Source: a virus
Length of the DNA: 22,180 nt
IMG/VR virus record: IMGVR_UViG_3300048591_000108
Location: 1 to 22,180 of that record
Reading direction: 5' to 3' (one strand)
Under the pieces are notes generated by a model, which saw only the letters and a list, made by a program, of their open reading frames with translations, did no database searches and was not told the origin of the DNA. The translations under genes were made by a program, and so were the position numbers. This document shows positions 4,308 to 16,097 of this stretch, in pieces. Within the stretch, counting starts at the first letter, position 1. Each line of letters starts with the position of its first letter.

Positions 4308-4756
4308 GCGCGGGCTGCCGCGGCGGCCCGGCGGCGGGCGATCCGCTCAATCCGGGTGCGCATCTGGTTGGCGATCTCCTGCACAGCGCGATCCTTGTTC
4401 GCCTCGAAGGCCGGCGTGAGCCAGGGACGGGCCGGGAACTTGGACGTGCCCAGCTCTATGAACTGCAGCGCGTAGTAGGCCTCGGGCGCGACACCCACCA
4501 TCGCGGTCGCGGCGGTCTTGTCGCGGCCGGTCCAGGTCTTGAGCCGTAGCGACTGCTGTGCGAACCCGGGCTCGACGGTGCGGCCCTTGTAGGTCTTGTG
4601 CGGTACGGTGCCGATCGGAACCGTGGCGAGCGCCTGGGCGTAGGTCGGCATCATGGCTTCAGTGACGGCGGCCTTCAGCACGCGGCCGCTGGTGGCCTTG
4701 CCGAGCTCGGCGAGCTGGCGGCTGAGCTCCTTCGTGCCTTCAAGCGTTGCCGTCAT
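4304..4756 (-). CDS. HK97 gp10-like head-tail/tail completion protein
   Basis: A 150-aa protein with the HK97-gp10_like layout: an N-terminal helix (GTKELSRQLAELGK), a basic central segment with VPIGTVPHKTYKGRT, the hallmark YYALQFIELGTSKFPARPWL (Y..xxEfGT...paxPFlrPA in the family), and a C-terminal basic helix rich in Arg and Ala. Members act at the neck, where the tail joins the head. The gene overlaps the upstream head-tail adaptor by 17 bases and the downstream DUF3168 gene by 4, which fits tight translational coupling. Confidence 0.92.
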   Translation of the reverse strand: MTATLEGTKELSRQLAELGKATSGRVLKAAVTEAMMPTYAQALATVPIGTVPHKTYKGRTVEPGFAQQSLRLKTWTGRDKTAATAMVGVAPEAYYALQFIELGTSKFPARPWLTPAFEANKDRAVQEIANQMRTRIERIARRRAAAAARA

Positions 4757-5111
4757 ATGCGAACCCTTCGGCGCCGCGCTGCCTGCACATCAGGTGCACC
4801 TCGCGGTCGCGCTCCTGCCAGTTGATGACGGCCAGCACGTCGTAGTAGTGCACCAGGCCAGGGGAGCCCGGCTCGGAGACGAACACGACGCGCAGCTTCT
4901 CGTTCAGGCCCGGCCGGTAGCGGAGCCGGATCCGGGTATTGACCTCGGAGGACACCTGCGCCGCGGCGAAGTACTCGCGACCGGCAATCGGTTCGACGCT
5001 GGCCCAGACTTCGGCCACGTCCGACCACGACCAGGTGACCTCGCCGCTCGCCTGCTGCGTCTCGACGCGCTGCTGCAGCAGGACGCGATGCCTAAGCCTG
5101 CCGGCGCGCAT
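4740..5111 (-). CDS. Head-tail adaptor (SPP1 gp16-like head closure protein)
   Basis: A 123-aa protein of the phage head-tail joining family (PF05521-like). It starts MRAGRLRHRVLLQQRVE and contains GEVTWSWSDVAEVWASVEPI, IAGREYFAAAQVSSEVNTRI and a C-terminal strand INWQERDREVHLMCRQRG. The "lrhrV.lq...d..G......W......vwA.v.pl.G.E...A.....e.t..i.iRy" pattern is clear. This protein closes the connector after DNA packaging and receives the tail. It follows the gp6-like connector with only one small gene between, the usual order being connector, adaptor, gp10. Confidence 0.92.
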   Translation of the reverse strand: MRAGRLRHRVLLQQRVETQQASGEVTWSWSDVAEVWASVEPIAGREYFAAAQVSSEVNTRIRLRYRPGLNEKLRVVFVSEPGSPGLVHYYDVLAVINWQERDREVHLMCRQRGAEGFAYDGNA

Positions 5112-5235
5112 TGGCGGCCTCCCGGCGCAGCTTTTCCTCGGCCATCCGCCGCTCGAGGTCCTCGAGGCGACGGCGGACCGGCGCGGGCATCACCTTGCGG
5201 GCGGCCGCGCAGGGCTTGCAGGGCTCGCGCTTCAT
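5092..5235 (-). CDS. Small basic CxxC protein (47 aa) between connector and adaptor
   Basis: A short gene with good boundaries. Its ATG at 5235 overlaps the connector stop (ATGA), and its end overlaps the adaptor start by 20 bases. The product begins MKREPCKPCAAARKVMPAPV and continues as a highly charged helix (RRRLEDLERRMAEEKLRR). The CxxC could bind a metal, but one pair is not enough to say so. I do not recognise the family. Coding is inferred from the coupled start and charged-helix composition; short genes of this kind are common at neck loci. Confidence 0.65.
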   Translation of the reverse strand: MKREPCKPCAAARKVMPAPVRRRLEDLERRMAEEKLRREAANARRQA

Positions 5236-5531
5236 ACGCCCAGGCAGACCCGGTACGGGAACAGCAGCCGCTCGACGGCCGGGTTCGGCTTGATCTCGAA
5301 GTCGACCTGCGCCTCGCGGTTCTCGTAGAGGTCGGCGACGATCATCAGCACCGCGATGCGGATCGGGGCCGGGCGATCGTTCGGGCTGCCGAGCAGCTCC
5401 TCTTCGGTCAGGTTCAGGAAATTGAGGACGTGCGCCTCGGTGGCCTCGATGTACGCCTCGAGCAGCAGGTCGTCGGTATCGATCTCGACCCGGCAGTGCT
5501 CTTTCGCTTCGTTCAGGTCGGTGAAGATCAC
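5232..5531 (-). CDS. Head-tail connector protein (HK97 gp6-like)
   Basis: A 99-aa protein matching the gp6-like phage connector family (PF05135-like). It opens MIFTDLNEAKEHCRVEID, the family's "lee.K.hlri.....D..l..yI.aA...ve..." pattern, followed by DLLLEAYIEATEAHVLNFL, PAPIRIAVLMIVADLYENRE and a C-terminal VERLLFPYR. The protein forms a ring below the portal. In this genome it is separated from the capsid gene by about 5.6 kb of accessory genes; in HK97-type phages and GTAs it normally follows the major capsid gene. It starts inside the stop of the GT8-like gene (ATGA), so the accessory block is physically joined to the neck genes. Confidence 0.92.
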   Translation of the reverse strand: MIFTDLNEAKEHCRVEIDTDDLLLEAYIEATEAHVLNFLNLTEEELLGSPNDRPAPIRIAVLMIVADLYENREAQVDFEIKPNPAVERLLFPYRVCLGV

Positions 5532-6241
5532 GCGGCGCGCTCCTTCATGAGGTGCTGCTCAGCCCACCAGAGGTCCGAGTGCTCGGCCCGCTCGTAGCCG
5601 GGCATGAACGGCATGCCGAGCGTGTAGTGCGCGAGCTGCACGCCCGACGGCCTCGGCTGCACGCCGACCAGCCAGTTCCAGGTGTTCGGCAGCGCGCCGA
5701 TCTCAGCATCCGTGAGCCAGCAGAACTGGTGCAGGTCGCGACCCGGCACGTCGTTGACCAGGCGCAGGGTCAGGCTGCGGTTCGACTGGTGGTCGCAGTT
5801 GAACAGCATCACGCTGGACCAGTTCTTCCGCCGGTAGCGGGTCTGTTCGCAGCCGTCCATCTTCGTGCCCTCGTCGCCGGCGTGCTCATGCTTGACGCAC
5901 ATCACGGCGTACTTCGGGTCAGCCAGGGCGAAGAGGCGCGCGACGTCGCCCAGGAACAGCATGTCGCAGTCGATGAACAGAGCCCAGCCGGTCTGCGCGA
6001 GGATCGGCACCAGGAAGCGCGTGTTCGAGAACTGCGTCGAGCACGGCGCATCCGAGAGCACGTCCCAGAGCGAATTGCGGTGGATCCTGTACGGGCGCTG
6101 CGACAGTCCGCAGGCCTGCAGCTTCTCGAGCACCAGGGGCGTGACCGTTGTCGGCCGGGTTGCATGCCGACGCAGCGAGAACTCCGCCACCCGGTAGGCC
6201 GGTTCCTCGCGGGTATCGAAGCCGATGTAGACGCGGATCAT
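5528..6241 (-). CDS. GT8-like nucleotide-sugar glycosyltransferase
   Basis: A 237-aa protein starting MIRVYIGFDTREEPAYRVAE, with a Rossmann-like N-terminus and the metal/nucleotide-sugar motif in LFIDCDMLFLGDVARLF (DCD about residues 91-93). A second motif, NWSSVMLFNCDH, resembles the acceptor-side part of GT8/GT-A transferases. The likely role is transfer of a sugar from a nucleotide sugar; substrate and acceptor are unknown. The ATG at 6241 overlaps the radical SAM stop (ATGA). The open frame runs further upstream, but that extension lies in the radical SAM gene and is Arg-rich shadow sequence. It is the last gene of the sugar block, fused by overlap to the connector gene. Confidence 0.8.
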   Translation of the reverse strand: MIRVYIGFDTREEPAYRVAEFSLRRHATRPTTVTPLVLEKLQACGLSQRPYRIHRNSLWDVLSDAPCSTQFSNTRFLVPILAQTGWALFIDCDMLFLGDVARLFALADPKYAVMCVKHEHAGDEGTKMDGCEQTRYRRKNWSSVMLFNCDHQSNRSLTLRLVNDVPGRDLHQFCWLTDAEIGALPNTWNWLVGVQPRPSGVQLAHYTLGMPFMPGYERAEHSDLWWAEQHLMKERAA

Positions 6242-7191
6242 GAGTACGCCACGCACTGCTCGCAGACGGTGCCGGTGACGTCGCGGCGCAGGTGCGCGGC
6301 GCGGATCTGCTGGAACTCCGGCGAGTTCCACGCCTCCATGAACGGCTGGCGCGTCAGGTCGCCGACCTGGAACCGGCCGTCACTGTCGAAGCAGCACAGG
6401 CTCAACCCGCCGTCGGCTCGAACATGCCCTTCGGTGAACGCGGACCAGCACGGCAGCGGCTCGCGCATCGCCTCGAGGCGCCCCTGGTTGCCGGCGGTCG
6501 GGCGGTAACCGAGCTCGGCCTCGCGCTGCACCGCGATCGCACCCATCGAGTACAGCGGCAGCCAGTAATGCTGGTCGACGAACGGCAGGACGTGCTCGGC
6601 GAGCAGCGCCTCCATCTTCGCTTGCTGCTCGCCGTCGTAACGGATCGAGGAGGCATAGAGCCGTGTGCCATACCCGCCGGCGTTGCGGATGTCCCATGCG
6701 GCCTTGACGTTGACGAGCGCCTTGCGCCAGTACTTCGGCGAAACGGCCATCACCTCGCGGAACTGTTTCTCGTCGGCCGCGTTCATCGACCACTTGAGTG
6801 AGTCGAGCCCATGCTGCATGAGCGGCTCGACGTGCTCGGGTGTCGAGAGGCTCGCGTTCGAGGTCAGGAACACATACGGGAACCGCAGCTCACCCTTGAC
6901 CCATTTGAGCGCATCGAGCAGCAGCTCGGGCGCCATGAAGGACTCGCCCAGGTAGAAGAGTCCGATCTCCTCGACGCCCGCCTCGCGCATCTCGGTCGTG
7001 ATGCGCCGGAAAAGGTCGCGATCCATGTCGCCGTGCGGCTGCACCTCGCGGGTGCGCAGGGCGCAGAAACCGCATCTGTAATTGCAGCGGCCCGTCAGTT
7101 CGATCTTCACGGAGCGCGGCGCCGGCGGTGCGGCGAACCGGTGCGTCTCCGGAATCTTCGTGATGGCGTCGATCCGTTCGGTAATGCTCAT
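6238..7191 (-). CDS. Radical SAM enzyme with SPASM-like C-terminus
   Basis: A 317-aa protein. The cluster-binding motif CNYRCGFC gives CxxxCxxC at about residues 36, 40 and 43, preceded by the strand KIELTGR, as in radical SAM enzymes. A central barrel follows (GLFYLGESFMAPELLLDALK, then VFLTSNASLS). The C-terminal part has a PCW, GGLSLCCFDSD and a final CEQC pair (about 310 and 313), the layout of a SPASM auxiliary-cluster domain. Such enzymes modify peptides or sugars by radical chemistry; the substrate here is unknown. The start at 7191 overlaps the FkbM stop. Having this gene within a head-tail operon is unusual. A role in building or attaching the glycan is inference. Confidence 0.87.
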   Translation of the reverse strand: MSITERIDAITKIPETHRFAAPPAPRSVKIELTGRCNYRCGFCALRTREVQPHGDMDRDLFRRITTEMREAGVEEIGLFYLGESFMAPELLLDALKWVKGELRFPYVFLTSNASLSTPEHVEPLMQHGLDSLKWSMNAADEKQFREVMAVSPKYWRKALVNVKAAWDIRNAGGYGTRLYASSIRYDGEQQAKMEALLAEHVLPFVDQHYWLPLYSMGAIAVQREAELGYRPTAGNQGRLEAMREPLPCWSAFTEGHVRADGGLSLCCFDSDGRFQVGDLTRQPFMEAWNSPEFQQIRAAHLRRDVTGTVCEQCVAYS

Positions 7192-7925
7192 GGCCACACC
7201 AGGAAGTAATCGCCGCCGACGCAATCGACCGACTGCATGCCGAGCGCCTGCAGCCACGCCAGGGCGCCGTCCTTCTTCAGGCCGAGCCGTCCGTCCTCGC
7301 CTTTCTGCTCGACCACCACGACCGGGCGGCAGCGCTTCAGCGTCTCGATCGCGCCCTTCACCACGGCGAGCTCGTGGCCCTCGACGTCGATCTTGATCAG
7401 GTCGACATCGACGAACCCGAACGAGTCGAGCGTGCGCATCGGGACGTCGCCGGCGCCGCTCACCTGCGTATGGCCGCTGTGCCCGTCGTAGACCTTGAGC
7501 CCGACGCTGGCCTCGGACTTGCCGAGCGCCACCTGGCGCAGGTGCGCATTCTTGGCCGTGACGTTCCAGAGCCAGAGGTCGGCAACGGCCGGGTTCGGCT
7601 CAAATGCCATGACGAACTGGAACGCCTTGACGAGCTCCTTCGACCACAGCCCGACGTGTGCGCCGACGTCTACGCAGCGCCGGCGGCGATCAGTCGGCAC
7701 GAGCGCCAGGGCCCGCTCGAGCTTGTGGTACTGGTAGGTCAGCTGGCCGTCGACCTCGCGCCGCTGGTGCACCTCCATCATGTCGATCAGGTGCTTCTCG
7801 TTGGCCGGCAGCCAGACGCCGCCTATGAGCTGGGCATCCGGAGGGCCAATCCCACTGCCGTCCGAACAGTGTCCGGCGTGATCAGTGACCACGCGCGCCG
7901 GCAGGCCGGGTGTCGAATTCTCCAT
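7188..7925 (-). CDS. FkbM-type SAM-dependent methyltransferase
   Basis: A 245-aa protein. SAM-binding motif I is CVDVGAHVGLWS (about 84-95), the acidic loop is FEPNP, and the FkbM signature LIKIDVEGHELAVVKGA lies at about 177-192. Family members O-methylate sugars or other small groups and often sit in polysaccharide clusters. I chose the ATG at 7925 because a GAGG with a 7-base spacer precedes it and because the conserved-looking GVWLPANEKH lies soon after. This start overlaps the previous gene by 103 bases in another frame, which is long; no better start occurs after the overlap. The likely role is methylating a sugar made by the adjacent transferases. Confidence 0.85.
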   Translation of the reverse strand: MENSTPGLPARVVTDHAGHCSDGSGIGPPDAQLIGGVWLPANEKHLIDMMEVHQRREVDGQLTYQYHKLERALALVPTDRRRRCVDVGAHVGLWSKELVKAFQFVMAFEPNPAVADLWLWNVTAKNAHLRQVALGKSEASVGLKVYDGHSGHTQVSGAGDVPMRTLDSFGFVDVDLIKIDVEGHELAVVKGAIETLKRCRPVVVVEQKGEDGRLGLKKDGALAWLQALGMQSVDCVGGDYFLVWP

Positions 7926-8560
7926 CCAAGTGCCTCGGGGTCGTCGACCGCCAGGTTGATGTGTATGTCGTAGCCGGTGTTCGCCGGCCGCAGGTAACCG
8001 CCGAACAGCACGACGACCCGCCGGCCGAGGGCCGCGGCGACGTGGTGCAGCGCCCCTTCGGGCAGCACCGCCGTGGCGCAGCCGGCCATCAGGTTGCAGG
8101 CGTCGGCGAAGTCGCGCGTCTCGAGCTGGACGACCCCGCCCAGCCATTTCGTGCCCTCGTTGCCGAGCTGCGCCCAGGGCACGTCCGGGTAGTCGTGGAC
8201 GAGCTCCTGCCAGCGGCCCCACTGCTTGTTCGGGCTGGCGGTCGCCTTGATGTGCGGCTCGAGGAGCACGAGGCCCTCGGCTCGCGGGTCGGGGCGCACG
8301 TCGAACAGCTCGCCCGGGTTCGCTCGCCAGGCGGTGAACGCCCAGCGGTCCTTCGTGGTCCGCTTGTAGTCGATGTACGGCCGGCAGGCCGGGCCGTTTG
8401 TCAGCCCCGGAAACTCGCCCGGCTCACCCGGCCGCGCGATGTAGCTCGCCCGCTCCCAGAGATGGTGCCAGCGGCGCCGGCCCGTCTTGTCCAGGATCGC
8501 TACCTTGCGTCCCGCGGCCCTCGCCTGGCCGACCGCCAACAATTCGTCCCCGATCCCCAC
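7823..8560 (-). CDS. GT9/GT-B-like putative glycosyltransferase
   Basis: A 245-aa protein starting with a GTG at 8560 and the motif MGIGDELLAVGQARAAGRKV, which looks like the N-terminal nucleotide-sugar transferase loop (GxGDxL) of heptosyltransferase-like GT9 proteins. A GT-B-like C-terminal half contains LLEPHIKA, WLGGVVQLETRDFADACNLM and EGALHHVAAALGRRVVVLFG, again close to the GT9 pattern. It therefore probably transfers a sugar onto a glycan, but the donor is unknown. The start is supported by the glycine-rich motif itself, although the upstream gene reads 137 bases past it in another frame. The stop lies within the FkbM gene. Confidence 0.75.
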   Translation of the reverse strand: MGIGDELLAVGQARAAGRKVAILDKTGRRRWHHLWERASYIARPGEPGEFPGLTNGPACRPYIDYKRTTKDRWAFTAWRANPGELFDVRPDPRAEGLVLLEPHIKATASPNKQWGRWQELVHDYPDVPWAQLGNEGTKWLGGVVQLETRDFADACNLMAGCATAVLPEGALHHVAAALGRRVVVLFGGYLRPANTGYDIHINLAVDDPEALGWRIRHPACRRAWSLITPDTVRTAVGLALRMPSS

Positions 8561-9317
8561 TCAGACGCTCCCAGGCCTCGCCAGAGCGCATCTCGGCCAA
8601 GGTCCACTGATGGCCCGCGATGCGGGCGAACAAGTCCCTGCGCTCGTCCTGCGTCGGGCGGTAAGGGGTCTCTAACCGTTCCCACGGCGTCGCGAGGCGC
8701 GCGGCGCAAAAGGTTTTCTCGGTCACGATGACCGGCACCCCGGCGGCCAGCGCGTCGATCGCCACGGCCGACGAGTGCGTGATCACGATCCAGGCATTGG
8801 CCAGGGCCACCTCGAGCGGCGGCTGGCGTCGCATCCGGCCCATCGGCTTCTGGCGCATGACGATCGGCCGCTTCGTGACGGCCCGCAGGTTGCCCTGCAG
8901 CTTGCCGATGTAGTGGCGCAGGCTCATGCCCGTCCAGCGGGCGTAGAACTCCGGCGACTGCAGCGCGACCAGGACGTGCCGGCCGCTGCTCCTGGCGGGC
9001 GCGATCTGCACGCCGAGCCGATCGAGGCGCGCGAAGTCGGGCTCGCCGAATCCATCGCACCAGAGCCGCCGGTGGCTGATCCGGTGATACTCCATGCGCC
9101 GCCAGTAACCGTGGTCGACCTCGTACCAGTCAGTCACCACGGGCGATTGCATGACGGCCTTCTGGTTGTCGGCCATCCCAGAGACGATCGCGATGCCCGG
9201 ACGCGGGGTCCAGTCGTAGACCACCCGCCCGCCGGTCCCCTCAGCCAGTGCGCTGCAGAGGTCCTTGCTGTACTGCTTCCTTTGGTCCGCGTAGCAGGTG
9301 ACGGAAGGCGTATCCAG
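8424..9317 (-). CDS. Putative capsule-type glycosyltransferase, probable CTG start
   Basis: The open frame encodes about 297 aa from a CTG at 9317, or 266 aa from the first canonical start, GTG 9224. I prefer the CTG: residues before the GTG look coding (DTPSVTCYADQRKQYSKDLC) and a GAGGAG lies 7 bases before the CTG. The body contains YEVDHGYWRRMEYHRIS, HVLVALQSPEFYARWTG and VITHSSAVAIDALAAGVPVI, the last like the donor-site motif of GT-B/KpsS-type polysaccharide transferases. The C-terminal ~45 residues, after GEAWERL, are Arg/Gly/Pro-rich and overlap the next gene by 137 bases, so they may be a read-through tail. Exact function is unknown. Confidence 0.7.
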   Translation of the reverse strand: MDTPSVTCYADQRKQYSKDLCSALAEGTGGRVVYDWTPRPGIAIVSGMADNQKAVMQSPVVTDWYEVDHGYWRRMEYHRISHRRLWCDGFGEPDFARLDRLGVQIAPARSSGRHVLVALQSPEFYARWTGMSLRHYIGKLQGNLRAVTKRPIVMRQKPMGRMRRQPPLEVALANAWIVITHSSAVAIDALAAGVPVIVTEKTFCAARLATPWERLETPYRPTQDERRDLFARIAGHQWTLAEMRSGEAWERLSGDRGRIVGGRPGEGRGTQGSDPGQDGPAPLAPSLGAGELHRAAG

Positions 9318-10050
9318 AACCGATCTCCTCGACGGACCACATCGCCCACGCGAGCCGCGTCAGAAACTCCGTGCGGTCACCGCGGAACGGCGCCTCCAGC
9401 GTCTTGCCGAACGGCCGCGCCGCGGGCGCCCCGATCCACTGCGGCAGTCCGTTGTAGACCGGCACGCCGTAGAGCAGCGCCTTGATGGCCGCCCCGCTCG
9501 CCCAGGTCACCGCGAAGGCGGCGCCGTCGAGCTGCTTGTACAGCGACGGGTTCTCCTGGTGTCGGCCCGGGTGTCCCCGGATCACGACCCGATGCCCCAT
9601 GCGCTCGATCAGCTGTGCGGCCTTCTGGTGCCAGCCCGGCGGCTGGGCCACCGGCGGCGAGCCGATGCCGCGCTGCGCGAACACCAGCGCGTGACCATCC
9701 TGCTGGCGCCAGGGCTTGAGCTCGGCGGCGAACATGCCCGCGCGCTCGGTCCCGCCAACGTGCCAGCGGCCCGCGCCGGCGTTCCAGCCGATCGCGAGCG
9801 AATACCAGACCCGGCCCGCCCAGTCGCGGCCGAGGAAGCCGTTCTCGGCGACCACCACCGTGGCACCGTGGCGCTCGTAGTGCGCGGCGAGCCGCGCCCC
9901 GTCGCCGTAGCGGTTCCAGATCAGCAGCAGGTCGGTCGGCGCAGGCTTGGCGAGCTCCGGTCCGACCGTGTATCCGCAGGTCCGCAGCCCGTCGCAGAAC
10001 GCATCGCGCCGGTAGTGCGGCGCCTCGCGGACGGCGACGTGCGCCCTCAC
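9241..10050 (-). CDS. Putative glycosyltransferase (GT-B/capsule synthesis-like)
   Basis: A 269-aa protein from the GTG at 10050, one base after the stop of the membrane coiled-coil gene. It contains DLLLIWNRYGDGARLA, ATVVVAENGFLGRDW, HALVFAQRGIGSPPVA and VVIRGHPGRH, followed by FAVTWASGAAIKALLYGVPV. This last string is the same type of "SS..ieAl..G.PV" donor-site motif seen in the next gene (ITHSSAVAIDALAAGVPVI). The two are probably distant relatives in the GT-B or capsule-polysaccharide class. The end of the frame (after AFRHLLR) overlaps the next gene's proposed start and may be a non-conserved tail. Donor and acceptor are unknown. Confidence 0.7.
   Translation of the reverse strand: MRAHVAVREAPHYRRDAFCDGLRTCGYTVGPELAKPAPTDLLLIWNRYGDGARLAAHYERHGATVVVAENGFLGRDWAGRVWYSLAIGWNAGAGRWHVGGTERAGMFAAELKPWRQQDGHALVFAQRGIGSPPVAQPPGWHQKAAQLIERMGHRVVIRGHPGRHQENPSLYKQLDGAAFAVTWASGAAIKALLYGVPVYNGLPQWIGAPAARPFGKTLEAPFRGDRTEFLTRLAWAMWSVEEIGSGYAFRHLLRGPKEAVQQGPLQRTG
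9325..9330 (-). promoter_or_regulatory. Ribosome-binding site GAGGAG deciding a CTG start
   Basis: On the minus strand GAGGAG is followed by a 7-base spacer (ATCGGTT) and then CTG at 9317, in frame with the 8424-9224 glycosyltransferase. The site is a near-ideal Shine-Dalgarno sequence at ideal spacing inside the end of the previous gene. No ATG, GTG or TTG lies in this frame between the site and GTG 9224. The GAGGAG also encodes Glu-Glu in the upstream gene, so it may be chance. Confidence 0.5.
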
Positions 10051-10051
10051 G

Positions 10052-10336
10052 TCAGTTGCGGTTGTTGTCCAGCAGCGTCTCGATGCGATCGAGGCGCTTG
10101 ACGATGTCCTGCTTGAGCTCGCCCTGGTAACGCTCCATCTGGGCTGAGCGCATCTCGAGCGCACTCAGGCGGGTGGCCGCCTCGAGGTGCTCGATCTGCT
10201 GGACACGGCGATCCATCTGGTCGAAGCGCTCCAGCATCTGCCCGGTCGAGAAGACCAGCGTCAGGACCAGGGCACCATCGACGATCAGCGAACCGAGCGG
10301 AACACGGAACCGTCCAATACCTTCAGGGCTCGACAT
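10052..10336 (-). CDS. Small single-pass membrane protein with coiled coil
   Basis: A 94-aa protein from the ATG at 10336, which overlaps the previous stop (TGATG) and follows GGAGGT with a 6-base spacer. After a short polar N-terminus there is one hydrophobic segment (VPLGSLIVDGALVLTLVFST, about 10-29), then a long charged helix with regular heptads (ERFDQMDRRVQQIEHLEA, DIVKRLDRIETLLDN). It could be a holin-like or spanin-like protein, but no lysin is nearby. A membrane anchor or scaffold for the adjacent glycosyltransferases is an alternative suggested only by position. I do not recognise a named family. Confidence 0.72.
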   Translation of the reverse strand: MSSPEGIGRFRVPLGSLIVDGALVLTLVFSTGQMLERFDQMDRRVQQIEHLEAATRLSALEMRSAQMERYQGELKQDIVKRLDRIETLLDNNRN

Positions 10337-10938
10337 CAGCAACCTCCAAGCGCGTTAATCAGTGAGGCCTGCGGGAAACACCGCAGGCGCGAAATCGGGC
10401 TCGTATTGACCACCTCGAGGCCGAGCCGTTTGCAGTCCTCAGCGATCGCGCCGAAGTTGCGGACGAACAGGTTCCACGGGCTCTCGTTGCGCAGCCCCTT
10501 CGGGTGATCGCCGAAGAAGTGCGAGCGGCGGCCAGCAGGCCCCATGTCGTAGCCCACCAGTACGAACCGGCGGGCGCCCCAGTGCAGCGCGAGGTTCATG
10601 GCCTGCGCGCCGCTGTTGGAGTTGAAATTGATCAGCGCCGGGTCCGTCGAGAGCCCGGTCGTGTGCTTGCCGGCTATTCGCCGGAGTCCGAACTCTTTCG
10701 CGGCTGCCGCGTCCTGCGTCCAGCGTTCCCCGTGGAACGATCGCTCGACTTCGACTCGGTGGATGAGCCACCAGTCGCGGTCGCAGGCGTAGAGGGCTGC
10801 GGCCCACGGCGCGAGGCGCCAGGCGTCGTTGACGACGACGACGGGCCAGTCGCGGGCGAGTCCGAGGTCGGCATCTGCGGCACTCGGGCCGCTGGCGACG
10901 AGGACGACCGTGCGCCGCTCGTCGCGGAATCTAAAGGG
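10336..10938 (-). CDS. GT42/DUF115-like putative glycosyltransferase lacking a start codon
   Basis: The coding frame is convincing from RTVVLVASGPSAADADLGLA through WPVVVVNDAWRLAPWA, LYACDRDWWL, NSGAQAMNLALHWGARRFVL and VGYDMGPAGRRSHFFGDHPK to SRLRCFP near the end. The "GxGPS" loop and "G..A..LA...G...i.L.GyDm" pattern resemble sialyltransferase-like GT42 and DUF115 proteins. The nearest canonical in-frame start (ATG 10599) falls in the middle of this conserved body. No ATG, GTG or TTG occurs upstream in this frame back past the start of the preceding gene; only a CTG at 10995. The left boundary given here is the end of the gene, and 10938 is the slippery heptamer where the preceding frame could enter. 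It may instead be a broken gene or carry a sequence error. Confidence 0.7.
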   Translation of the reverse strand, partial: PFRFRDERRTVVLVASGPSAADADLGLARDWPVVVVNDAWRLAPWAAALYACDRDWWLIHRVEVERSFHGERWTQDAAAAKEFGLRRIAGKHTTGLSTDPALINFNSNSGAQAMNLALHWGARRFVLVGYDMGPAGRRSHFFGDHPKGLRNESPWNLFVRNFGAIAEDCKRLGLEVVNTSPISRLRCFPQASLINALGGC

Positions 10939-11099
10939 CCGGCGACTGGCGCCTCCCGGATGATCTTGGTCTCGTAGTACTCGGCCGCACCGCAGCTGAC
11001 GAGCTGCTGGGCGTGGTCCTCGGAGACGTTCAGCACGTTGCCGCGGCGCAGGTTGCCGTAGGTGCTGAGCATGTCGGTCTTGACTCGAATCTGTGGCAT
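10674..11099 (-). CDS. Small capsid-adjacent protein with low-complexity tail
   Basis: A 141-aa frame from ATG 11099. Residues 1-50 look like a genuine small domain (MPQIRVKTDMLSTYGNLRRG, then NVLNVSEDHAQQLVSCGAAE). This "...LRRGDV..L....A..Li..GaAe" pattern is common in short proteins encoded next to phage capsid genes. Residues after about 54 are Ser/Thr/Pro/Arg-rich and lie over the conserved body of the next gene in another frame. They could be a real disordered tail or simply what remains after loss of the original stop. Function is unknown. A strong hairpin separates it from the major capsid gene. Confidence 0.65.
   Translation of the reverse strand: MPQIRVKTDMLSTYGNLRRGNVLNVSEDHAQQLVSCGAAEYYETKIIREAPVAGPLDSATSGARSSSSPAARVPQMPTSDSPATGPSSSSTTPGASRRGPQPSTPATATGGSSTESKSSDRSTGNAGRRTRQPRKSSDSGE
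10932..10938 (-). promoter_or_regulatory. Candidate -1 frameshift heptamer C CCT TTA
   Basis: In the frame of the small capsid-adjacent gene the codons are GGC CCT TTA GAT. The heptamer C CCT TTA follows the X XXY YYZ rule, and a -1 slip gives CCC TTT AGA TTC, which is exactly the frame of the start-less GT42/DUF115-like gene. This is a candidate only. C CCT TTA is not among the strongest bacterial slip sites, and an indel would produce the same picture. Confidence 0.4.
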
Positions 11100-11154: not shown

Positions 11155-12354
11155 TCAGACGACCGGCGAACCGGCGCGCAGACCACCCGCCACGACCGCC
11201 GCCGGCCGGTACACCGCGAGGGCGGCCCGGAGCTCGGCACGAACCGTGATCAGGTTCTTCTGCACGTTGGTGTCGTCCTGCTCGAACATCTCCACGACGG
11301 CCCCGCTGCGCATGAACAGCTGGCAGGCATCCGCCGCGTAGACGATGTACCCGTCCTCGGGCACCGAGTTGGACACGATCACCGGCAGGCCCCACAACGT
11401 CGGCGTCATGCCGTTGTTGATGTAGCTCAGCGCGGCGCCGTCACCGGCGATATACGACCCGGTCACCGCCGCGGCCGTCTTGCGACGCTCGAGGCGGCCG
11501 AAGTCGGCCGGGTTCATCAGCACCACCGACGGCTGGTAGTCGGATGCGATCACCCGGTACTTCGCGTCGTTGATGGTGTCCGACTCGATGTAGCTCGCAT
11601 CGGTCGGCGTGAACGCGGTGTAGTTGCCGGTGCCCAAGAGGCCCAGCAGCTTGCCCGTGCCCTCACCCGCCACCACCTGCTGCTCGAGCTTGAGCTCGAC
11701 GCCGTGGCGCAGCCGACGATCGATGTACGACTGCAGCGCCGGCGCGTCGTCCAGCACCTGCTTCGACACCTTGATCCAGTGGGCGATCGTGCGCACCGGC
11801 TCCTGCACGAGCGAGAACGTCAGAGTGCTCTCGGGCTTGGTGGCGCCCTCGATCGTCTCTGCCGCGGCGTTCGTGAACGCGAGCTCCTTGGTGTACTCGA
11901 CCATGTTCGAGCTGGTGGCACCCTTCGGGATGGCGTCCAGCACGCGCAGGCCGCGGAACGCGCCGCCCACGATGCCCGGCAGCCGGTCCGCGCCGACGAT
12001 GGTGTCGACCGGGTCCTGCGGGGAGCCGCCCTCGCCGAGGATCGTGTTCTTCACCTCGAGGCGCAGCTTGGACGTGCGACCGTCCTTGTACTGCTGGAAC
12101 ATCTCCGAGGTCACCAGCGTCTCGCCGAGGCTCTTCGCGGCCGGCTTGCCCTCGGCCTTGTCGATGAGCTTCTGCTCGAGCTTGTTGACCGTGTCGATCA
12201 GCGCGCTGTGCTTCTCGGCCAGCACCCGCACCTCGGCCTTCGCCTCGCTGGCGACCGTGCCGGAGTCCTTCAGCTGGCCCTCGTACTTGGCGATGGCCGC
12301 CTCGATCTTCGTCTCGTGCTCCTTCAGAGCACCCTTGATCTGTTCGATATCCAT
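11155..12354 (-). CDS. HK97-fold major capsid protein
   Basis: A 399-aa protein. The N-terminal ~110 residues are a charged coiled-coil delta domain (IKGALKEHETKIEAAIAKYE onward), which is normally removed by the prohead protease. The capsid body shows the HK97 signatures IEGATKPESTLTF, VRTIAHWIKVSKQVLDDAPA, LQSYIDRRLRHGVELK, LWGLPVIVSNSVPEDGY and the C-terminal ITVRAELRAALAVYRP. Compared from memory with HK97 gp5, the Asn of the KNML segment has a counterpart (QKNLITV), but the cross-linking Lys in the E-loop (TFSK) appears to be replaced (TFSLV). Head cross-linking is therefore doubtful. The start at 12354 follows AGGA with a 9-base spacer. The protease gene lies immediately upstream. Confidence 0.96.
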   Translation of the reverse strand: MDIEQIKGALKEHETKIEAAIAKYEGQLKDSGTVASEAKAEVRVLAEKHSALIDTVNKLEQKLIDKAEGKPAAKSLGETLVTSEMFQQYKDGRTSKLRLEVKNTILGEGGSPQDPVDTIVGADRLPGIVGGAFRGLRVLDAIPKGATSSNMVEYTKELAFTNAAAETIEGATKPESTLTFSLVQEPVRTIAHWIKVSKQVLDDAPALQSYIDRRLRHGVELKLEQQVVAGEGTGKLLGLLGTGNYTAFTPTDASYIESDTINDAKYRVIASDYQPSVVLMNPADFGRLERRKTAAAVTGSYIAGDGAALSYINNGMTPTLWGLPVIVSNSVPEDGYIVYAADACQLFMRSGAVVEMFEQDDTNVQKNLITVRAELRAALAVYRPAAVVAGGLRAGSPVV

Positions 12355-13026: not shown

Positions 13027-13458
13027 TCAGGTAGTCGTCGCGATCGTCATCAGCATCTCGAGCACGTCCTCGTCGTCATCGCTCCAGTCCACGGCCGCCG
13101 CCAGGACGGCCCCGTCGGGCGTCTCGGCGAGCGCCATGACCATCGAGGCCTCGACCTCGAGGGCGACGCCCGCGCCGTCGGGGCGCTCGGTGACCAGCAG
13201 TCCGGCGACCGCATCGAGCGGGCCCGCGCCGATCAGGATTCGCGCCGTGTCGCGGGCCTCGATCACCTCGAGGCGCAGCAGCACCTCGGGCAGCTCGGGC
13301 TGGTAGGCGACGACGAACGGCGCACCAGGCCGCGGCCGGTAGGCTTCCTCGGTCGGCGGCTCGACCGGCGTACCGATCGGCCACAGGCCCAGATAGGCGA
13401 TCGAGACGGCGCCGAACCCGACGCCGAGCGTCGCGATCGCGCGTGGGTTCAGGCTCAC
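13027..13458 (-). CDS. Small phage protein with hydrophobic N-terminus, unknown role
   Basis: A 143-aa protein beginning MSLNPRAIATLGVGFGAVSI followed by AYLGLWPIG, then a Pro-rich linker (VEPPTEEAYRPRPGAP) and an acidic C-terminal half ending WSDDDEDVLEMLMTIA. The N-terminal segment could cross or touch a membrane, but similar "NPRAIA.LG.G" openings occur in phage structural loci, so a role in the virion is equally possible. I cannot give a function. The GTG at 13458 overlaps the upstream stop (GTGA), so it belongs to the same operon. It lies just before the protease gene. Confidence 0.75.
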   Translation of the reverse strand: MSLNPRAIATLGVGFGAVSIAYLGLWPIGTPVEPPTEEAYRPRPGAPFVVAYQPELPEVLLRLEVIEARDTARILIGAGPLDAVAGLLVTERPDGAGVALEVEASMVMALAETPDGAVLAAAVDWSDDDEDVLEMLMTIATTT

Positions 13459-14294
13459 TGCCGTTCGACGGTGACCGTGCCGACGCCTTCGGTCACGCTC
13501 AGCGTCCAGTCATCGGTGGAGATCTCGGTCGCCGACTGCAGCAGCGGCTTCGTGGGATCGAGGCCGAGTCGCTGGAAGATCTCGAGCAGCTGTGTCGCCT
13601 GCTCGGTCGTGAGCCCGCCGGCGGAGCCGCCGTTCAGCAGCGCGCCCATCGTGCCGGCGGAATTGTTGGCGGCAGCGATCGCGCCCCATACCGCGGAGCC
13701 GACGTTCCCGGTCGTGAGACCCGTACCCGTCACCACCAGATCCGCATCCAGCTCGCCGACGCCGGTCAGTACGGAAGCATCCAGCCCGCCTTCGCCCAGG
13801 ATCGCGGCGAGCATCGCGCCGAATCCCTCGAGGTCGGCATCAGTCACGCCACCCGAGCCGGTAAGGTTCGCGACCGCCGCCAGGAACGCCTGCAAGCTGG
13901 CAGCGGTGATCGCGCCCGAGCCGGTCAGTGCAGCGACCAGCTGCACGATCAGGCCGCCGACGGCCGTCAGTTCGCCACTGCCGGTCAGTGCCGCTTCTGC
14001 GAGCTTGACCGCCCAGCGGTCTGCGTTCGATACCGTACCGCTGCCGGTGACGGTGTTGCGCGCCGCGAGTGCGCCGGCCTGCTGCGGCATGATCCACGCG
14101 CTCGGGTGCCGGTTGCCTGACGGAACGCTGACGAGCTCACTGGTAATGCCCTCGCCTGCGGTCAGGTTCCGGTTCGCGGCGGTGCGGTGGTGGTTCTGCA
14201 CCGTGACCGACGGATAGGCGTTATTGGACGCCGTCGCCCCGAAGATCTGAAACGCGCCCAGGGTGTCGCGAAAGTTATTCGCGAGCAGGCCCAT
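13455..14294 (-). CDS. TGSG-repeat structural protein, probable decoration or fibre-like
   Basis: A 279-aa protein from ATG 14294 (TGATG overlap with the previous stop). The open frame extends further upstream, but only as Arg-rich shadow of the previous gene. The N-terminal ~75 residues have MGLLANNFRDTLGAFQIFG and an aromatic/polar stretch. Residues about 80-192 carry imperfect repeats of ~21 residues, each with a TGSG-like turn (83, 104, 124, 145, then 167, 177 and 189 more diverged) between hydrophobic helices or strands. The C-terminus has LTTEQATQLLEIFQRLGLDP and a beta-rich end. Such repeats suggest an elongated, surface-exposed virion protein. No enzyme motif is seen. Confidence 0.8.
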   Translation of the reverse strand: MGLLANNFRDTLGAFQIFGATASNNAYPSVTVQNHHRTAANRNLTAGEGITSELVSVPSGNRHPSAWIMPQQAGALAARNTVTGSGTVSNADRWAVKLAEAALTGSGELTAVGGLIVQLVAALTGSGAITAASLQAFLAAVANLTGSGGVTDADLEGFGAMLAAILGEGGLDASVLTGVGELDADLVVTGTGLTTGNVGSAVWGAIAAANNSAGTMGALLNGGSAGGLTTEQATQLLEIFQRLGLDPTKPLLQSATEISTDDWTLSVTEGVGTVTVERQ

Positions 14295-15193
14295 CAGCTG
14301 CCGCCGTACCCGTAATCGAAGTCGACGTTGACCGTGCCGGCCGAGCTCGTCGCACCCGTCTGGAACAGCAGGAACTGGATGTTCGCGCCGTCCGGGATCT
14401 TGCGCATCGAGGGCAGCGCGTTGACGAAGTCGACCTTGTTGTAGAGGCCGGTCGCGGGGATCGGCACCGTCCACAGCGGCTTGCACAGGCCAATGATGAC
14501 CGCGCCCGACGCATGCGCGGTGCCCGCCCAGACCAGCGAGACGATGTCGCTGACACCCGTATCGCCCGCCGCGAGCGGCAGGAACGGGTTGTACTTGTTC
14601 GCGGCGGCGCCCGTGTTGAGCAGCGCGCCCACGGGCAGCGAGGCGGTCGAGGTAAACGTGGTGGTCGCTCCGGCGTTACCACCCGTGTCGAGGTAGTTCA
14701 CGATGCAGGTCGGCGCGTTGGCGCCGAGCGCCGTATCCGCCGCGACGAACAGGCGCAGGCCCTGCCCGTTGGGGTAGCGGTCGCCCTTGCCGCCGCCCGC
14801 ACCGAGGGCCGTCATCGTCACGGCCTTCGTTCCGGTGCTCGAGACGTTGGCGCCCGACAGCGGCACGAAGCCGACCAGGTCGATCGCCATGACGTACCAG
14901 GGGGCGCCCGCCGCCGCGACGGCTGCTGCACCCGCCGAAAGGAAATGCTTGGTCGCGGGCGATACGTCGCCGCCGGTGTAGATCGTGCCCTCGGACCAGG
15001 TGTCGTCCGTGGGGACGTAGACCAGGTCGGAGCCGGTGAACGTCGCGGCCGGCGGATAGCCCGCATGGCCGGCGAGCAGCGTCCACGTACCGGCGACCTG
15101 CGCGGCGGCGAGTGTCTTGGTCGTGACGACCGTGTCGCCCTTGCCGTTGACGGTCAGCTGGGTGATCAGGTCGTCCTGGCTGGTGAATCCCAT
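14294..15193 (-). CDS. Phage structural protein, paralogue of the next gene upstream (299 aa)
   Basis: A 299-aa Gly/Ala/Thr-rich, beta-rich protein starting MGFTSQDDLITQLTVNGKGD. It shares a clear core with the gene immediately upstream: YNPFLPLAAGDTGVSDI here and YSPFVYLQAGDSGVRSI there, each followed by a hydrophobic strand ending in KPL (about 238-240 here, 227-229 there). Both start MGF(S/T)S and have almost equal length. There is no signal peptide, catalytic motif or membrane segment. A virion role (head decoration, spike or minor capsid) is inferred from position and composition. A GAGG ribosome-binding site precedes the ATG at 15193. Confidence 0.82.
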   Translation of the reverse strand: MGFTSQDDLITQLTVNGKGDTVVTTKTLAAAQVAGTWTLLAGHAGYPPAATFTGSDLVYVPTDDTWSEGTIYTGGDVSPATKHFLSAGAAAVAAAGAPWYVMAIDLVGFVPLSGANVSSTGTKAVTMTALGAGGGKGDRYPNGQGLRLFVAADTALGANAPTCIVNYLDTGGNAGATTTFTSTASLPVGALLNTGAAANKYNPFLPLAAGDTGVSDIVSLVWAGTAHASGAVIIGLCKPLWTVPIPATGLYNKVDFVNALPSMRKIPDGANIQFLLFQTGATSSAGTVNVDFDYGYGGS

Positions 15194-15200
15194 GAGTGCC

Positions 15201-16097
15201 TCAATTCCAGAAAGTTTCGACGATCCCCGCGAGGATCGAAGTGGCCAGCGACCCGGCGTAGCCGGCGGCGAGCAATCCGAGGACTGTTCCGTCCTTGATC
15301 TGCGGCGCCCCAGCGGCGTGGATGACCGATTGGAACTCCGCGCACGATCCGTAGCTCTCGAGATTGCCCGAAGTCGTACGGCGGCATTCCTGCGCGACGA
15401 AGTGCTTGAGCAGCGGCTTGACGATGACCAGAGCCATCAGCCCGCCGCCGGCCGCCGTGAACGTCACGGACTCGATCGAGCGGACGCCCGAGTCCCCGGC
15501 CTGCAGATAAACGAATGGGCTGTAGGACGCGCCCGCGCCGCTGGCGCTGACGATCTGTCCGCCGCCGGCGACCACGAACGTGAACGTGTTCTGCGACACC
15601 CGGCCAGGCACGCCGTCCTGGTTGGTGTACGTCATCGTGAACTGCCCGACCGCCGACGCCGCGGACTGCGCGACCGCGATCACCTGGCCGGCACCGTAGC
15701 GCGGCAGCGCGATCGTGTTGTCGAGGTCCTGCTGCTCGCCGACCGCGTCCGTGTCGATGAACGGGTAATAAAGCAGGTAGTCGCAGAGCGCCAGCTGCTG
15801 ACGCCCGTTCGCGGTGGACGTGGCCGAGTTCGCGGCCGTCATCACTCGCAGGTTGTTCAGGTGCTGCGTGGCCGGCGCGACAGAGGGCAGGTACAGCCCG
15901 CGCGTCGGGTCCACCACTGCGGCCTCGAGCGGCGTCGAGGCGTAGAAGTTCGCCGGCGGCGAGCCCGCGAAATAGGTGTAATCGATCCAGCCGTTTGTGG
16001 TCGTTGCGGCGCTGGCCACGGCCTTGCGGAACTGCGTGGTCCATACCTGGCCGGCTTCATCGGCCGCCGCGTACTCGCTGATCGAGCTGAATCCCAT
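15201..16097 (-). CDS. Phage structural protein, paralogue of the next gene downstream (298 aa)
   Basis: A 298-aa protein starting MGFSSISEYAAADEAGQVWT at ATG 16097, which overlaps the zinc-ribbon stop (TAATG). The N-terminal third is richer in aromatic residues than in the paralogue (WTTQFRKAV, GWIDYTYFAG, LCDYLLYYPFIDTD). The C-terminal core YSPFVYLQAGDSGVRSIES and VIVKPLLKHF is shared with the paralogue. It ends in a Gly/Ala-rich hydrophobic tail (TVLGLLAAGYAGSLATSILA) that the paralogue lacks. It is probably a virion protein; no known domain is recognised. The divergence suggests an old duplication with different partners. Confidence 0.82.
   Translation of the reverse strand: MGFSSISEYAAADEAGQVWTTQFRKAVASAATTTNGWIDYTYFAGSPPANFYASTPLEAAVVDPTRGLYLPSVAPATQHLNNLRVMTAANSATSTANGRQQLALCDYLLYYPFIDTDAVGEQQDLDNTIALPRYGAGQVIAVAQSAASAVGQFTMTYTNQDGVPGRVSQNTFTFVVAGGGQIVSASGAGASYSPFVYLQAGDSGVRSIESVTFTAAGGGLMALVIVKPLLKHFVAQECRRTTSGNLESYGSCAEFQSVIHAAGAPQIKDGTVLGLLAAGYAGSLATSILAGIVETFWN

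Follow-up and report, generated by a model that had tools for sequence, protein, structure and literature searches.

A block of putative glycan-modifying genes lies between the major capsid protein (MCP) gene and the gp6-like head-tail connector gene of a 22,180-base virus contig (IMG/VR record IMGVR_UViG_3300048591_000108, the whole of which is called the window here). Its gene content and its distribution among other phages suggest a mobile and modular glycan cassette, expressed late, which on balance probably attaches sugars to virion proteins in the cytoplasm while particles assemble. The block runs from position 10938 down to 5528 and encodes a GT42/sialyltransferase-like domain, a small membrane coiled-coil protein (TMcc), two related glycosyltransferases (GTs) termed GTa and GTb, a GT9-like transferase, an FkbM-type methyltransferase, a radical S-adenosylmethionine (SAM)/SPASM enzyme, and a GT8-like transferase. 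A preliminary description of this DNA had listed these genes as co-directional and overlapping between capsid and connector, and all are present according to PHROG, Pfam, and profile matches, with adjoining reading frames on the minus strand touching or overlapping. The position between MCP and gp6 suggests that they are expressed with the virion genes. Virion glycosylation is the best-supported explanation because the block genes are placed similarly in several unrelated phages, the GT42-like family appears to be phage restricted, and this family is linked to a small post-capsid protein.

Recurrence and mobility of the cassette

Window proteins and profiles derived from them were mapped onto relatives, and the same gene set, which the preliminary description had proposed seeking in other phages, was found repeatedly. 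A matching gene order is found in L174, a contig of a metagenome-assembled genome that bears the title Candidatus Hydrogenedentota but includes phage structural genes. It carries portal, GT42, GTa, GTb, methyltransferase, GT9, FkbM, radical SAM, GT8, gp6, and head closure genes, an order identical to that of the window apart from one extra methyltransferase. The same GT series lies between MCP and gp6 in L007, with the radical SAM gene moved behind gp6, while GT42, GTb, FkbM, GT9, and GT8 genes are found behind gp6 in L087 and L088 and the same families occur in shuffled orders in L019, L031, and L056. The cultured Caulobacter phage CcrSC resembles the window in having GT42, GTa, GTb, GT8, FkbM, and GT9 genes together (gp169 to gp174), but it is a jumbo phage that lacks the radical SAM and TMcc genes and has another gene order and site, between tail genes and lysozyme. 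In addition, Tetraselmis virus S20 has GT42- and FkbM-type genes between its capsid and head-closure genes. The joint recurrence of these families in divergent phages indicates that the gene set is more than a chance accumulation.

From the start of TMcc to the end of GT8, one 4.8-kb block is 87% identical in L003, where it lies between the DUF2460 and DUF2163 tail genes. This segment appears to have moved as a single block between two sites of the late operon. L003 also retains a separate, distant GT42-like gene beside gp6, and the GT42-like gene and the mobile cassette are therefore distinct units. The radical SAM gene is missing from the close relatives L193 to L198 (FkbM directly adjoins GT8 in L194 and L198) and is, from this distribution, an optional module. 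Genes added in other copies of the cassette encode methyltransferases, a hexapeptide-repeat transferase, and an HNH endonuclease, functions that fit glycan tailoring and mobile elements. The interval between GTb and GT9 in L194 (positions 6372 to 7467) holds an additional, unassigned open reading frame (ORF) together with an HNH endonuclease gene that may have helped to move the cassette.

Ratios of nonsynonymous to synonymous substitution rates (dN/dS, from an NG86 script) were <1 for all block genes compared. The radical SAM gene, with values of 0.04 and 0.10, is under strong purifying selection; the MCP gene gave 0.15 to 0.35 and the other block genes about 0.1 to 0.65 (against L003, L007, L071, and L194), the larger values coming from partial alignments to distant copies, e.g., GT42 versus L003 and GTa versus L198. 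The alternative raised earlier, that the genes represent unrelated single insertions, does not fit the recurrence of the set, the movement of the block, or purifying selection.

The radical SAM and GT8 genes are also found together among head genes outside the full cassette. L010, with an SU10-type capsid, has MCP, two small ORFs, a TPR protein, a methyltransferase, radical SAM, an HNH endonuclease, GT8, a small ORF, and head closure Hc3. Where the full cassette is lacking, 104 ORFs neighbor the radical SAM loci, and the recognizable families seen most often among them were the SU10 adaptor (nine ORFs), TPR proteins, P22-type portal (five), SU10 capsid (five), and DegT aminotransferase (three); a nucleotide-sugar dehydratase and a CMP-sugar cytidylyltransferase each occurred once. 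These SU10- and P22-portal-type loci therefore show that unrelated phage types place the same enzymes among head genes. With duplicates left in, 46 of 65 viral loci of the radical SAM gene had a GT8 gene in the fetched stretch versus 11 of 80 bacterial-contig loci, where it was counted within 10 kb of the radical SAM gene.

A putative −1 frameshift into the GT42-like gene

The preliminary description had listed a GT42/DUF115-like protein and missed that its gene has no usual start codon. The gene is present (Table 1), but its frame contains no ATG, GTG, or TTG in the window and is joined to the small post-capsid ORF at the heptamer CCCTTTA, where a −1 slip in the small ORF frame (10938 to 10932) would lead into the GT42 frame. 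The small ORF encodes an N-terminal domain of ~50 amino acids followed by a Ser/Pro-rich dual-coding tail. A homologous, phrog_2616-like domain lies upstream of GT42 in ~49 lineages among the matches listed, and it matches phrog_2616 itself in 13 of 20 lineages. Some lineages beyond L071, L072, and L007 have other canonical heptamers.

Alignment A1 of the GT42-like family was too divergent for scanning the collection and a single-protein scan returned one locus; loci were hence gathered from the fetched sequences and by a scan for the DNA pattern encoding HWHGDHP, giving at least 154 loci in at least 102 clusters at 70%. An overlap class was defined by a long upstream frame, independently of start codons, and comprised 49 clusters among the matches listed after three spurious ones had been dropped by eye. 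Among these listed matches, the GT42 frame lacked a start codon in 43 of 49 overlap-class clusters versus 2 of 50 in the other class, and canonical heptamers in the last 60 nucleotides (nt) were in the zero frame in 29 of 49 clusters, compared with 4 and 7 in the other two phases. Many of the overlap-class clusters outside these 29 have C CCN at the same position.

The 55 nt downstream are predicted to fold more stably than shuffled sequences (mean folding z of −1.75, versus −0.13 and +0.10 for controls; P = 1e-7). A GGCCGCTGGC/GCCAGCGGCC helix is paired in 78.5% of cells versus 26 to 52% when slid, and one of its pairs varies as GC, CG, AU, GU, and UG; covariation is weak by the other measures, and coding for GT42 (ASGP) further constrains the 3′ arm. 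RNAalifold returned no consensus structure for alignment A10, probably owing to shifted positions of the hairpin arms between aligned sequences; the helix was instead scored by a named-structure count. The hairpin of the window is at the same place as the family helix and differs in sequence.

A zero-frame X XXY YYZ heptamer, a downstream structure, and a downstream frame without a start are thus found together, and we infer that the GT42-like domain is made through programmed −1 frameshifting from the small post-capsid ORF. A sequencing error does not account for the lack of a start codon, because the independent contigs L071, L072, and L007 and about 40 other lineages share the arrangement. 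PmgO of phage P1 is GT42-like yet has its own ATG, lacks such an overlap, and therefore falls outside the frameshift class. The frameshifts of the gpG/gpGT tail chaperone and of the phage A2 major head protein are similar in having a slippery heptamer, a minor C-terminally extended product, and a location in the structural operon; unlike them, the extension in the window would be a glycosyltransferase-like domain adjoining the capsid gene.

In Pseudomonas phages D3 and PMG1, too, the interval between MCP and head-tail adaptor contains a GT42-like gene that is overlapped by a small ORF and has CCCAAAG, but they lack the GT cassette and the pair is annotated as two separate genes. In the D3-like PMG1 (L107), these are the overlapping PMG1_0007 and PMG1_0008 (positions 4692 to 5410), probably one frameshift pair at CCCAAAG. 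Separately, an ~831-nt gene paired with a methyltransferase is located behind head closure in PMG1 (L107, 6795 to 8193) and between GT42 and the connector in Psp6 (L200, 5144 to 6560), and may represent another small movable insert in head genes.

The GT42-like domain itself has a weak profile match to structures of GT42 sialyltransferases of the CstII type (E values of 0.007 to 0.018), and phrog_4603, which it matches, takes its name from these enzymes. Its H130 is nearly invariant in alignment A1, and the alignment to CstII ends ahead of the CstII catalytic His. Four weak partial matches, none convincing, were the only ones in 274 bacterial genomes, and the family therefore appears to be restricted to phages.

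Enzymes of the cassette and their genomic context

The recognized genes of the window are all on the minus strand and form a single late operon: small and large terminase, portal, several head-region genes, protease, MCP, the block, gp6, head closure, gp10-like, tail terminator, tail protein, tape measure, DUF2460, and DUF2163 genes. Terminase, portal, and tail genes were named from our reading of gene order and translations. Features of the block and its borders are given in Table 1.

Table 1. Positions of the cassette genes, putative recoding signals, and bordering genes in the window
Feature	Position	Strand	Match or remark
HK97-type MCP, left border	11155..12354	−	phrog_10 major head protein, 1.8e-53
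Small post-capsid ORF, putative frameshift zero frame	10674..11099	−	ATG at 11099
GT42/sialyltransferase-like (DUF115-like) domain, −1 frame	10336..10938	−	phrog_4603, 9e-43
Putative slippery heptamer CCCTTTA, zero frame C CCT TTA	10932..10938	−	Identical heptamer in L071, L072, and L007
Predicted downstream hairpin GCGACGAG/CTCGTCGC, 6-nt spacer past heptamer	10895..10925	−	Folds in window, L071, and L007
TMcc, small membrane coiled-coil protein	10052..10336	−	Travels with cassette in L003 to L006
GTa, GT-B transferase with Kdo-transferase (WbbB/KpsC/KrkA) fold	9241..10050	−	Model pLDDT 80; Foldseek 1.9e-8
GTb, GTa paralogue	8424..9317, N-terminal start uncertain	−	Aligns with GTa
GT9 (heptosyltransferase-like) glycosyltransferase	7823..8560	−	Pfam GT9, 3.3e-4; profile to WaaF, 4e-8
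FkbM-type methyltransferase	7188..7925	−	PF05050, 4.9e-17
Radical SAM/SPASM-twitch enzyme, optional module	6238..7191	−	PF04055 and PF13186 above cutoff
GT8-like glycosyltransferase	5528..6241	−	phrog_28018, 3e-54
gp6-like head-tail connector, right border	5232..5531	−	PF05135 Phage_connect_1, 1.7e-12; phrog_40 head-tail adaptor, 5.7e-25

Three putative glycosyltransferases had been proposed in the middle of the block and were recovered as GTa, its paralogue GTb, and the GT9-like protein, but none exceeds a Pfam cutoff. GTa and GTb have no family match above cutoff, and the GT9 protein misses the curated threshold (20.5 versus 22 bits); it is labeled only GT9-like for this reason, although its alignment profile matches WaaF. 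Structure prediction, also suggested earlier, placed GTa clearly in the KpsC/WbbB/KrkA fold, with Z scores of 10 to 13.1 against these 3-deoxy-d-manno-octulosonic acid (Kdo) transferases versus 7.8 for the next structure. Sequence identity is 8 to 16%, however, and no conserved Asp is recognizable opposite the catalytic Asp nucleophile of KpsC in a weak alignment; GTa is accordingly not assigned as a member of the retaining Kdo transferases. The conserved N terminus of GTb (9224 to 9317) overlaps the end of GTa. It has an ATG in L007 and L071 but no ATG, GTG, or TTG in the window, L003, or L194, where GTb may start at a CTG or ACG preceded by GAGGAG, be coupled to GTa, or depend on a second recoding event. 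The GT8-like protein has a DxD motif (D91/D93) invariant in 28 sequences, but falls below the Pfam GT8 cutoff (17 versus 24.3 bits). If the folds dictate the donors, these would be CMP-ulosonates and ADP-heptose, both of which are made by Gram-negative hosts. TMcc accompanies the cassette in close relatives only and is probably not a core component, since the L007, L174, and CcrSC cassettes were found to lack it.

The FkbM and radical SAM/SPASM identities given in the preliminary description are borne out by Pfam scores above cutoff: 63 bits for PF05050 (cutoff, 22.7), 42 bits for PF04055, and 47 bits for PF13186 (SPASM). The radical SAM enzyme retains C36/C40/C43 (CxxxCxxC) and the auxiliary-cluster cysteines C248/C266/C267/C310/C313 in all of 47 sequences. 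It had no match in 50,697 phage records, was absent from every cultured phage searched, and is found at 68 loci in IMG/VR. Its predicted structure (pLDDT 86) is equally close to SuiB, ChlB, BtrN, and DesII (Z of about 20.6 to 20.9), and the ties also include SkfB and anSME. BtrN, a sugar-alcohol dehydrogenase, is both a tied nearest structure and among the best profile matches, and its C-terminal cysteine pattern is presumably similar. BtrN and DesII (Z of 20.6) share the radical SAM fold but only 15% identity with the window enzyme, and SuiB and ChlB, with peptide substrates, tie with them; because of these equal Z scores, the modeled fold is compatible with sugar and peptide chemistry alike. 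Contigs of Betaproteobacteria (L109 to L188) commonly carry this family, mainly outside glycan loci, and bacterial neighborhoods, considered as a clue to its substrate, gave no clear lead.

Candidate acceptors and significance

Embedding among head genes and the putative frameshift link of the GT42-like domain to the small post-capsid protein favor a virion acceptor. Ribosomes translating the small ORF would slip −1 at CCCTTTA, aided by the hairpin, to yield a minor product in which the small domain is fused to the GT42-like transferase, and the small domain may direct this enzyme to head proteins or to the head as it forms. Soluble GTa/GTb, GT9 heptosyl-type, and GT8-like transferases, fed by host nucleotide sugars, could then lengthen a sugar chain that FkbM would O-methylate, and the radical SAM/SPASM enzyme, in phages with this module, may perform C-H oxidation or epimerization on the glycan. 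The acceptor should be cytoplasmic, since none of the block genes was recognized as encoding a flippase, a polymerase, or an initiating transferase of the lipid-linked kind. We offer only tentatively the broader proposal of a widespread, substoichiometric frameshift fusion between a small head-binding protein and a GT domain, which would tether the enzyme to the capsid it modifies while the cassette builds a methylated, radical SAM-tailored virion glycan.

Virion glycosylation by phage-encoded GTs is known from mycobacteriophages (Freeman 2023, cited in PMC12619734 and PMC12363180). As these citing papers present them, the GTs of Che8 (gp110), Corndog (gp38), and Myrna are similar to the block in acting on capsid or tail proteins, but one or two GTs are named in those reports, whereas the window has approximately five GTs, FkbM, and radical SAM in a movable set within the head operon, with a predicted glycan. 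The suggestion of an undescribed system therefore applies to the gene set and not to virion glycosylation as such; no paper was found on this gene set or on the frameshift in a literature in which most subscription papers were beyond reach. Two similar-looking proteins in the portal-protease interval (14294 to 15193 and 15201 to 16097) are possible head decoration proteins. The earlier proposal that such paralogous head-region proteins are the acceptors gained no support; those at 13455 to 16097 had no PHROG match.

Several observations weigh against the proposed virion modification. Its acceptor, donors, and product, like the modification itself, are deduced from gene content. Synthesis of the lipopolysaccharide (LPS) core also typically involves GT9, Kdo-type, and GT8 enzymes, and the fold neighbors of the radical SAM enzyme include peptide-modifying SuiB and ChlB beside sugar-modifying BtrN and DesII. 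Homologues of this enzyme in bacterial contigs (57 to 74% identity, mostly Betaproteobacteria) usually occur alone, and five annotated bacterial neighborhoods (Pfam) were mixed, with stress, respiratory, transport, or TPR genes. Furthermore, a radical SAM cassette without a GT42-like gene is present in the 50-kb L046 contig, which rules out the GT42-like protein as a strict cassette partner; contigs L194 and L197 are truncated at the GT42 site and are uninformative in this respect.

The preliminary description had left the late-made glycan on either the virion or the host surface. Late in infection, the enzymes may modify the LPS or lipid A-core of the host cell, which could, for instance, keep progeny from being trapped on debris or prevent superinfection, and the association of WaaF-like GT9, Kdo-transferase fold, GT8, and FkbM proteins with LPS and capsule loci, the ability of soluble GTs to work at the inner membrane face, and the apparent membrane anchor of TMcc are all consistent with this. 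We nevertheless regard it as unlikely, given the embedding of these genes among head and connector genes in unrelated phages of several types, the GT42-like domain apparently fused by frameshifting to a post-capsid protein, and the fact that no GtrA flippase or GtrB bactoprenol transferase of gtr-type serotype conversion was recognized in the block with Pfam and PHROGs. Phage GTs can also assemble glycans on DNA (Pyle 2024, as cited in PMC12619734), but glycosylation of phage DNA bases by this block is highly improbable: its location is late and structural, its heptosyl-, Kdo-, and sialyl-type folds are unlike known DNA GTs, and no base-hydroxymethylation gene was recognized in the window, which, however, lacks the replication region.

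A radical-modified glycan, also proposed previously, is consistent with closeness to BtrN and DesII, but peptide-modifying enzymes are equally close and chromosomal relatives lie mostly outside glycan loci. The radical SAM enzyme, perhaps with GT8, could therefore act on a peptide, e.g., directly on a virion protein, with the nearby GTs as a separate activity. The fold ties with SuiB, ChlB, SkfB, and anSME argue for this, as does the optional nature of the gene, which is separated from the GTs in L007 and mostly occurs by itself in bacteria. Adjacency of radical SAM and GT8 in unrelated phages and several bacterial contigs, and the presence of BtrN among the tied nearest structures and best profile matches, make it a rather improbable explanation.

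If D3 and other well-studied phages do enter their GT42-like gene behind the capsid gene by a frameshift, this would explain the overlapping gene pair beside many capsid genes. If the cassette glycosylates virions, phages would swap entire glycan-building cassettes, radical SAM tailoring included, and thereby vary what their particles display, which would bear on immune recognition of phages, particle stability, and interaction with the host.

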